From positions 81,824 through 145,823 of the forward strand of contig PGYV01000005.1 of the NCBI GenBank assembly GCA_002839855.1: DNA of 64,000 nucleotides, given 5' to 3'. The notes below the pieces were generated by a model. That model had not been told where the DNA came from and did no database searches. It saw nothing but the letters and a program-made list of their open reading frames with translations. The first letter of the stretch is position 1; every line of letters begins with the position of its first letter. The position numbers and the translations under genes are program-made. Source of the DNA: Candidatus Goldiibacteriota bacterium HGW-Goldbacteria-1 (GTDB taxonomy: Bacteria; Oederibacteriota; PGYV01). Of this stretch, positions 6,208-39,909 are shown piece after piece.

Positions 6208-7698
6208 CTACCTTCCAAGCTGTACCAGTGTGTCAAGCATGTCAGAGGATGTTGTTACTATCCTTGCGTTTGATTCAAAGCCCCTCTGCGCGATGATCAT
6301 GTTTGTCAGTTCAACTGACAGGTCAACGTTGGAAGCTTCCAGCGCGTTTCCTGTTGTTGTTCCAAGCCCTGCATTACCTGCTGTTGAAACCTGTGCAAGT
6401 CCGCTGTTAGCTGACTGCATAAACATTGTTCCTGCAGACTTTTCAAGACCGGCAGGGTTTGCGAAGTTAGCAACCGCAAGCTGTGCCATTGTGATGATCT
6501 GGTTGTTAGAGAAACTGCAGTTGATGCCGCCTGTCTGGTCTATTGAAACACCTGTAAGTGTTCCTTCGCTGTAACCGTCAACATACGATGTGTAGATTGT
6601 CTGCTTCGGAATGTAAAGGCCGGTTGTGGCATCATATCTGCCCGAACCATAGTCGCCGGTGATTCCGTCGCGTAATCCAACTAAGTTTGCGTCCATAGCA
6701 GCGTCAGTTCCGATATTAACTGAAATTATCTGCGGTGTTGTTGCACCATTTGTAAGGTTAAGCGTAATTTCAGCATTCAGCGCGCCGGCCGGTCCGCCAT
6801 TTTCCTGAAGCGATCCATCAGCATTAAATAAGATGTTTGCTGCCGATCCAACGTTAGGTGCAAGTCCGTTTGCAATTGTCATTGTAGGATCTGTTGTGTC
6901 GTATGCAGACCATGCCCAGTTTGCGGGCCCTACTGTGATGTCTGCTGTCTGTGTCCAATAGAAAGTTATCTGCCTTGCAGTACCAAGAGAGTCATAAACT
7001 GTTGCAGTTGAAACCGCATCAGGTGTATAGCCGGCTGCAGGATATGCGCCGCCGGGTGCGCCTGTTACGTTCTGTGGTGTATTGCAGTCAAGATTACCTT
7101 TAAGGATAATACCCATATCCTTCCTTAACGGATCTGTGTTGTTGCTATTGTCTGTTGCTTTCGGCCCTAATACCATATTCTGCGGTATCTTGATGCTTGT
7201 GTAAGGCTGGTTTGTGTCAAGTGTGGAAGTGTAAGCAGGTGCCGGTGCTACAGCTGCCGGGTCAAATATGAACTCCCTCTGCCATCCCTGAACAAGTCCG
7301 CCGTTTGATGTTGTAAGGTTTCCTTCATTGTCAAAATTGAAGTTTCCGGCGCGTGTATAGAATGTTGCGTCGCCTGATTCAACAACAAAGAAGCCTGCTC
7401 CGTCTATTGCAACGTCTGTCGCGTTTCCTGTTGTCTGGATAGCACCCTGTGTCATGATTGTATCAATTGAACCAAGTGTGGATCCAAGACCCTGCTGTTT
7501 AGGATTGATACCGCCAAGGTTTGCGCTGTTGTTAGAACCTGACGCGGAACCAAGGGACTGTGAAATTGCTTCTTTGAAAGTTACCCTTCCCATCTTAAAG
7601 CCTACGGTGTTAACGTTAGAGATGTTGTTTCCAATTACGTTCATCCAGGATGTGTGGTTCTTAAGGCCTGAGATTGAAGAAAAAAGTGATCCCATCAT
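6208..7698 (-). CDS. flgE: Flagellar hook protein FlgE
   Basis: A 496-residue hook subunit. The N-terminal rod/hook domain has SSISGLKNHTSWMNVIGNNI and NVNTVGFKMGRVTFKEA. The middle (about 150-420) is the variable outer domain. The C-terminus has LEASNVDLSVELTNMIIAQR and GFESNARIVTTSSDMLDTL, the conserved D0 helix. FlgE polymerises into the hook outside the cell after export by the flagellar apparatus. It is the last gene of the flgB unit, just before a strong terminator, and it follows a 100-base structured leader whose folding overlaps the ribosome-binding site CGGAGG (7712-7707). Two adjacent ATG codons start the gene; either is compatible. Confidence 0.97.
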   Translation of the reverse strand: MMGSLFSSISGLKNHTSWMNVIGNNISNVNTVGFKMGRVTFKEAISQSLGSASGSNNSANLGGINPKQQGLGSTLGSIDTIMTQGAIQTTGNATDVAIDGAGFFVVESGDATFYTRAGNFNFDNEGNLTTSNGGLVQGWQREFIFDPAAVAPAPAYTSTLDTNQPYTSIKIPQNMVLGPKATDNSNNTDPLRKDMGIILKGNLDCNTPQNVTGAPGGAYPAAGYTPDAVSTATVYDSLGTARQITFYWTQTADITVGPANWAWSAYDTTDPTMTIANGLAPNVGSAANILFNADGSLQENGGPAGALNAEITLNLTNGATTPQIISVNIGTDAAMDANLVGLRDGITGDYGSGRYDATTGLYIPKQTIYTSYVDGYSEGTLTGVSIDQTGGINCSFSNNQIITMAQLAVANFANPAGLEKSAGTMFMQSANSGLAQVSTAGNAGLGTTTGNALEASNVDLSVELTNMIIAQRGFESNARIVTTSSDMLDTLVQLGR

Positions 7699-7706
7699 GA
7701 TAGTTC

Positions 7707-7790
7707 GCCTCCGAAAATTTTTTTCCGGCGCATTCGGCGCCGATTTTCGGCCCCCGCTTCACCTAAGTGAAGAAGTCCGGCCGTCTTTCT
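7707..7790 (-). promoter_or_regulatory. Structured leader of flgE with competing helices
   Basis: Read on the minus strand, helix A pairs CGGCC (7782-7778) with GGCCG (7751-7747) around an inner CTTCAC/GTGAAG hairpin (7771-7756). Helix B pairs CCGAAAAT (7749-7742) with ATTTTCGG (7717-7710) around CGGCGC/GCGCCG (7741-7725). Bases 7747-7749 belong to both helices, so they exclude one another. Helix B uses the first three bases of the CGGAGG ribosome-binding site. This layout suggests translational control of hook production. It matches no riboswitch class that I recognise. Confidence 0.55.
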
Positions 7791-7799
7791 GTTGCGTTT

Positions 7800-8192
7800 T
7801 TAAGCAATTACCGCGCTGTCTATATTGGTAAACACATTTTCCTGCATGCTTGCCCTGTCAACAGCGGTTATTACAGTGTTGTTCTTAACGCTTACTATCA
7901 GGGAGAAGTTCTCAAATACCATAAGCGTTTCGTTCGCTCCCTTTTCTTTTGCCTTTCCAATAGCGTTTTTCAGCCTCTGCATCGTTTCAGGCGTAAGTTC
8001 TATGTTGCGTGACTGTAACCTTTTTTCCGCGTGTGAGGAGAATTTAACTTCTTCCTGCTCCGCGACTTTTGTTTCAAGAACCTGCTTAAAACTCTGTGAA
8101 GGCTGTACCGGCGCTTTGGAAATACCCTGCTGAAGCTTTTGGGCTTCCTGCAGCTGTGAAAGTTTTTGTAACTGTGTGTTAATATTCACCAT
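7800..8192 (-). CDS. Flagellar operon protein, TIGR02530 family
   Basis: A 130-residue protein of the family often listed as 'flagellar operon protein', found between flgD and flgE in many non-enteric bacteria; its precise function is not established. Residues 50-128 hold the conserved part: FSSHAEKRLQSRNIELTPE, then MQRLKNAIGKAKEKGANETL, then VSVKNNTVITAVDR. The N-terminal 45 residues are Gln-rich and probably flexible. A strong GGAGG precedes ATG by eight bases. Spacing to flgD is 14 bases. The 101-base gap after it holds the structured flgE leader. Confidence 0.88.
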   Translation of the reverse strand: MVNINTQLQKLSQLQEAQKLQQGISKAPVQPSQSFKQVLETKVAEQEEVKFSSHAEKRLQSRNIELTPETMQRLKNAIGKAKEKGANETLMVFENFSLIVSVKNNTVITAVDRASMQENVFTNIDSAVIA

Positions 8193-39825: not shown

Positions 39826-39909
39826 TGGTGCGAGGAGGGGGACTTGAACCCCCACGGAGTTATCCACAGGCACCTCAAGCCTGCGTGTCTACCATTTCAC
39901 CATCCTCGC
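39826..39909 (-). tRNA. tRNA-Leu (anticodon GAG), CCA encoded
   Basis: An 84-base type-II tRNA on the minus strand. Acceptor GCGAGGA pairs TCCTCGC; D-loop AATGGTAGACACGC; anticodon stem CAGGC/GCCTG with loop TTGAGGT, so the anticodon is GAG, reading CUC and CUU; a long variable arm GTGGATAACTCC; T-arm GGGGGTTCAAGTCCCCC; and encoded CCA. Identity as tRNA-Leu is supported by the long variable arm and the anticodon. Promoter and terminator both closely flank it, so it is a stand-alone unit. Confidence 0.97.

Follow-up and report, generated by a model that had tools for sequence, protein, structure and literature searches.

What is known of when hook and rod proteins are made comes largely from a handful of model organisms. 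Several described RNA systems touch on flagellar genes or on comparable leader logic. The Termite-flg RNA (RF01729) is a cis-regulatory structured RNA reported from the termite hindgut only (PMC2864571), and the flg-Rhizobiales RNA (RF01736) was reported from Rhizobiales (PMC2864571). In Campylobacter jejuni, the sRNA CJnc230 (FlmE) is processed from the 3' side of the flgE mRNA and acts in trans on flgM (PMC11187230). Flagellin leaders under CsrA/FliW control combine GGA bases with post-transcriptional regulation of an abundant exported flagellar subunit. Protein-responsive autogenous leaders, for example those of ribosomal-protein operons, place a conserved leader structure in the same operon as its own RNA-binding protein, and that structure is mutually exclusive with an occluded ribosome-binding site.

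The flgE leader described here has points in common with each of these systems. Like the Termite-flg RNA, it is a structured, putatively cis-regulatory RNA with a flagellar association, whereas the GGCY-GGA core and the GANNGANNGA loop of the motif described below are both missing from the Termite-flg consensus. The RF01729 covariance model (106 positions) matched no motif site in 30 genomes; its best match, at an unrelated site, reached 19.5 bits, short of the gathering score of 40, and there was none in the window (the whole 64,000-nucleotide stretch of DNA that was analysed). The flg-Rhizobiales RNA, also named for flagellar genes, gave no match in the Rfam scans. A cmscan of the leader against Rfam 15, which includes the c-di-GMP-I and -II riboswitches, returned no match, with only a 13-bit chance match outside the leader, and eight diverse motif loci had none up to E = 1. 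A single tRNA gene at 39829-39909 (- strand) is the sole Rfam match within the window. With CJnc230 the leader shares post-transcriptional RNA control (here proposed) centred on the flgE mRNA, the difference being that CJnc230 involves no leader element. GGA bases and an exported flagellar subunit recall the CsrA/FliW flagellin leaders, from which the structure differs. Like the autogenous leaders, it shares an operon with what is probably its own RNA-binding protein, with the differences that the proposed protein is a flagellar operon protein with a predicted RelE-like fold and that the element also precedes unlinked genes. The main texts searched of large RNA-discovery papers contain no flgE or hook leader motif beyond Termite-flg and flg-Rhizobiales; within those main texts and Rfam 15 the leader class looks undescribed.

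The leader fills the gap between flgE and the gene directly upstream, which scores 113.5 bits against TIGR02530 (curated cut-off 83.2) and thus belongs to the flg_new family. All features lie on the - strand and are numbered from the first base of the window:

6208-7698, - strand: flgE, the hook protein gene and proposed controlled gene
7800-8192, - strand: flg_new (TIGR02530, PF12611), directly upstream of flgE, proposed to encode the RNA-binding partner
between the two, - strand: the leader, a gap of 101 nt
7779-7783, - strand: 5' strand of P1 (helix A, CGGCC), covarying
7776-7778, - strand: conserved GGA of the P1/P2 internal loop
7754-7775, - strand: hairpin P2, loop TTAG, pairs 7772-7767/7762-7757 extended by 7775-7774/7755-7754, covarying
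7748-7752, - strand: 3' strand of P1 (helix A, GGCCG), of which 7748-7750 is common to helix B
7743-7750, - strand: 5' strand of helix B, CCGAAAAT, the alternative on the anti-SD side
7726-7742, - strand: hairpin P3, CGGCGC-CGAAT-GCGCCG, pairs 7742-7737/7731-7726
7711-7718, - strand: 3' strand of helix B, ATTTTCGG
7708-7713, - strand: flgE ribosome-binding site (SD), CGGAGG

The first-pass annotation had proposed two mutually exclusive helices in this leader, and both are present with the sequences it spelled out, although its coordinates were all one base too low. Helix A pairs CGGCC (7783-7779) with GGCCG (7752-7748), and helix B pairs CCGAAAAT (7750-7743) with ATTTTCGG (7718-7711). The overlap that makes them exclusive is real and falls at 7748-7750 rather than 7747-7749, and the CGG of the CGGAGG site (7713-7708) does lie inside helix B, so that one of the two helices closes the SD, as expected of a translational switch. 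P2 and P3 are two further hairpins, absent from that annotation, that are compatible with helix A. Neither an intrinsic terminator nor an internal sigma-70 promoter was found in the leader. Just below 6208 (- strand), 3' of flgE, lies a strong GC-rich hairpin, GGCGGGGCTTTTCGGCCCCGCC, with A and T runs on either side, which was seen in the flank of locus L002 and looks like a terminator separating flgE from flbD-motA-motB.

Folding supports the earlier claim that the leader is structured (z = -2.59 against dinucleotide shuffles, with 4 of 200 shuffles folding as well), and only 3 of 500 shuffled leaders contain an 8-bp Watson-Crick helix spanning 30-60 nt. In the bare 101-nt leader, the fold with helix A is favoured over that with helix B (-34.3 vs -30.1 kcal/mol). 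With 20 nt of flgE appended the two are nearly equal (-34.9 vs -34.5 kcal/mol), and with 40 nt both are minority folds in the prediction, so thermodynamics alone cannot decide between them. Holding P1 open lowers predicted SD accessibility in this leader from 0.54 to 0.40, a small effect attributable to competing local folds.

The leader is closely conserved in near relatives. In a genome of the same genus, whose flgE protein is 87% identical, all 101 leader positions are unchanged, while flgE fourfold-degenerate sites are 79% identical; in a second genome 98 of 101 positions are retained, with the three changes all downstream of the ribosome-binding site, against 73% identity at fourfold sites. 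One of the relatives carries the label Candidatus Goldiibacteriota. At the level of the order, sequences differ and the architecture is kept: RGGCY, GGA, a hairpin, one or two purines, RGCCY, a second hairpin and the ribosome-binding site. Helix A corresponds to P1, the basal stem of an RNA motif of the form RGGCY-GGA-[hairpin P2]-R-RGCCY, usually followed by P3 with loop GANNGANNGA, and this motif is ancient. Within the P1/P2 internal loop the GG is invariant and the third base is mostly A, with some GGC or GGU. The P3 loop is shorter and of CGAAT type in the window's order; most of the distant relatives have GANNGANNGA. Compact leaders that lack P3 also occur (L067, L072, L073, L115, L126, L140).

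Covariance models of the core (R1, R2) and of the core plus second hairpin (R3) were used to locate further copies. In its own genome the window leader is the only match. Among 45 genomes of the same phylum 21 match, of which two low-scoring cases (L052, L054) were judged chance, and beyond the phylum matches extend across many families. In regions downstream of flg_new taken from further genomes that a family search had identified, the motif was present in nearly all, even where the first model had missed it; five flg_new/flgE junctions show no recognisable motif (L091, L098, L121, L149, L150). The compilation comprises 87 leaders, 14 of them placed by hand, from about 50 families by family label. 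Low-scoring R1, R2 or R3 matches inside coding sequence or an open frame (L052, L074, L078-L081, L216-L218) were set aside as chance, and L054 and L060 were discarded likewise for lack of flagellar context.

The covariation check that had been suggested over relatives came out strongly in favour of helix A. In 63 members aligned with R3, 92.9% of cells are standard pairs, with 31 further pair types, and changes on both sides of a pair number 135 against 33.0 in shuffled alignments; sliding the partners by one to three columns reduces pairing to 45-56%. The first 27 members gave similar values (94.2% paired; 59 both-side changes vs 21). Since the structure itself guides the R3 alignment, P3 was examined separately with its stem left out, anchored on the loop alone. 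The GANNGANNGA loop occurs in 50 of the 87 leaders vs 2.1 expected from shuffling, and of the bases that flank it, positions 2-6 pair in 96-100% of cases with several pair types. RNAalifold on a MAFFT alignment did not recover P1, because several rows of that alignment have the P1 3' strand displaced by one column; the R3 covariance-model alignment recovers it.

Nearly all copies sit between flg_new and flgE. Others precede flgG (L057, L077, L082-L084, L201, L202, L205, L208, L211), a second flgE-like gene after flgD (L207, L209) or flagellin (L206, genome G376), which shows that the element is not tied to a single intergenic gap. Exported axial subunits (FlgE, FlgG, flagellin) make up most of the targets identified. 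In the same family as the flagellin copy, L203 (G512) precedes a gene of no assigned family that may be flagellar, and L200 and L204 are single copies each ahead of a gene without identification. One 51-bit copy (L210, G502, about 797-853) precedes a sigma-70-family gene, with no obvious flagellar structural gene.

Every verified intergenic copy lies in a genome that carries flg_new. Of the same 384 genomes, 84 have flg_new and 173 have FlgE/F/G proteins. About 90 flagellated genomes that lack flg_new yielded no intergenic copy, and in genomes without the gene the inspected matches all fall inside coding sequence. A search of 14 control genomes found flg_new in none of them. Part of this co-occurrence reflects linked inheritance, as flg_new adjoins the flgE copy; the flgG, flagellin and second-flgE copies are unlinked to flg_new and lie elsewhere in their genomes.

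The flg_new core has invariant polar residues (His, Arg, Lys, Asn and Thr) in the motifs SxHAxxR, KG and NxT. DUF4258 is weakly matched by 12 of 40 flg_new members (best E 0.0025), and profile comparison with hhalign gave probabilities of 67-78 over only 17 columns, spanning the HAxxRLxxRxI / HAxxRMxxRxI motif. A model of the trimmed core reached pLDDT 89; its best PDB match in Foldseek was YafQ (prob 0.57, E = 0.29, not significant), and the top 50 matches also included RelE1, ParE, HP0894 and further YafQ entries, at E values of 0.29 and above. The full-length model gave nothing useful in Foldseek, probably owing to a floppy N-terminus, and a PDB sequence search with the flg_new profile returned spurious matches only. 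DUF4258 is classed among the BECR-fold toxin families (PMC11980606). These comparisons and the predicted model suggest that the core likely has a RelE/DUF4258-like fold and that flg_new may be a domesticated RNase fold. The flg_new protein probably binds the leader RNA.

Pairing between the P1 3' strand, together with the bases that follow it, and the ribosome-binding site is possible in the window leader and in relatives, often with very different sequences: CCGAAAAT/ATTTTCGG in the window, CCTTCTG/CAGGAGG in L007, CTCCTTA/TAAGGAG in L010 and GCCTCC/GGAGGC in L014. Complementarity of cognate P1 3' strands and SDs modestly exceeds that of permuted pairs (p = 0.006 for 86 leaders, uncorrected for relatedness; p = 0.05 within the window's order). 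With P1 held open in ensemble folding, 13 of 87 leaders lose more than 0.3 in predicted SD accessibility, and in one leader it rises. The P3-to-SD distance varies widely, and numerous lineages have an SD placed far downstream that does not pair with the P1 3' strand. Of the switch-like design put forward in the first-pass annotation, one element is retained: helix A competes with an SD-pairing alternative for a common 3' strand. Helix B is the less conserved of the two helices. On these sequence comparisons helix B is not part of the conserved core of the element, and an SD switch is plausible and recurrent.

We consider it on balance probable that the leader belongs to a widespread, undescribed class of cis-regulatory RNA, recognised most likely by flg_new, in which P1, in this leader and a fair share of the others, competes with an SD-closing alternative. 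The element is made up of stem P1 with its asymmetric internal loop bearing GGA, of hairpin P2 and, in most cases, of P3, and it precedes flagellar axial protein genes, flgE foremost among them. Its structure, covariation, gene context and co-occurrence with flg_new are established at the level of compared genomes. We infer that flg_new, with its predicted RelE/DUF4258-like core, would bind, or cleave, the leader RNA and that translation would be the regulated step. Binding to the P1/P2 loop and P3 would keep P1 closed and leave the ribosome-binding site free; with no flg_new bound, the P1 3' strand could close the site. This direction of effect is suggested by the geometry of the leader.

Other readings account for parts of the same evidence. 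That these are ordinary intergenic hairpins without regulatory role, the switching being chance complementarity of GC-rich stems, fits the observation that helix B pairing exceeds permuted pairing only modestly, and this may hold for helix B in some lineages. Covariation, loop conservation, restriction to a single locus, spread over about 50 families and a leader identical at 101/101 positions where fourfold sites stand at 79% argue against it, and for P1, P2 and P3 it is refuted; as a general account it is highly improbable. Control by CsrA, as in the Bacillus subtilis flagellin leader, would draw on the conserved GGA, the second GGA within the SD and the flagellar target. In the leader, however, the GGA follows C or T and belongs to the P1/P2 internal loop, not to a hairpin loop of ANGGA form, and GGC or GGT variants of it occur. 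For the window genome (G000) this candidate was rejected, as csrA is absent there and in all same-phylum motif genomes searched; it is missing from 16 of 45 motif genomes overall, and a CsrA-binding leader is barely credible.

A riboswitch, with the P1/P2 internal loop and the loop of P3 as an aptamer whose ligand, a small molecule or ion (e.g., a motility second messenger), stabilises P1 and frees the SD, would suit the compact two-hairpin form, the conserved unpaired bases, the one SD-closing alternative pairing, the several flagellar target genes and the tandem copies at L095 and L119. We judge it unlikely: no Rfam riboswitch family matches, the gene range is almost entirely flagellar, and strict co-occurrence with flg_new, with absence from about 90 flagellated genomes that lack it, would be unexpected for a metabolite sensor. 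Alternatively, the RNA could be a handling element for another factor, such as a site between flg_new and flgE where an RNase processes the transcript or its stability is set, or a signal linking the export machinery to translation of the subunits it exports. Most identified targets are exported axial subunits, the variable P3-SD distance makes direct SD control not obvious everywhere, and a partner with a RelE-like fold could act as a nuclease; the conservation of unpaired loop bases and flg_new co-occurrence nevertheless point to one dedicated partner, and L210 stands ahead of a sigma-factor gene. This alternative is rather unlikely, although a nuclease role of flg_new or export coupling would leave the same sequence pattern. 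Recognition by flg_new is most likely, ahead of another factor or a small ligand.

Should the flg_new-recognised element act as proposed, an undescribed post-transcriptional control would operate in a sizeable fraction of flagellated bacteria (84 genomes with flg_new vs 173 with FlgE/F/G, of 384). For flg_new, a conserved flagellar gene that so far has no more than a family number, this would also provide a function open to testing; with an RNA of small size and its proposed partner encoded next door, binding is directly testable. More tentatively, and as a possibility only, early domestication of a RelE/DUF4258-type toxin fold could have made flg_new a dedicated regulator of flagellum assembly, one that reads (or cuts) a two-hairpin tag on mRNAs for exported axial proteins (hook, distal rod, sometimes flagellin) and so sets when they are translated according to the state of the export apparatus in many lineages.

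Some loci depart from the common arrangement. At L095 (G422) and L119 (G555), two tandem P1-P2-P3 copies lie ahead of one flgE, between it and flg_new. At L147 (G521), a P1-P2 element lies within a C-terminal extension of the flg_new frame, the stop of which overlaps the flgE start (TGATG). At L123 (G488), the motif and the flgE ribosome-binding site are set apart by near-identical hairpin repeats of ACAGCCTGATGGCTGA type arranged in an array.
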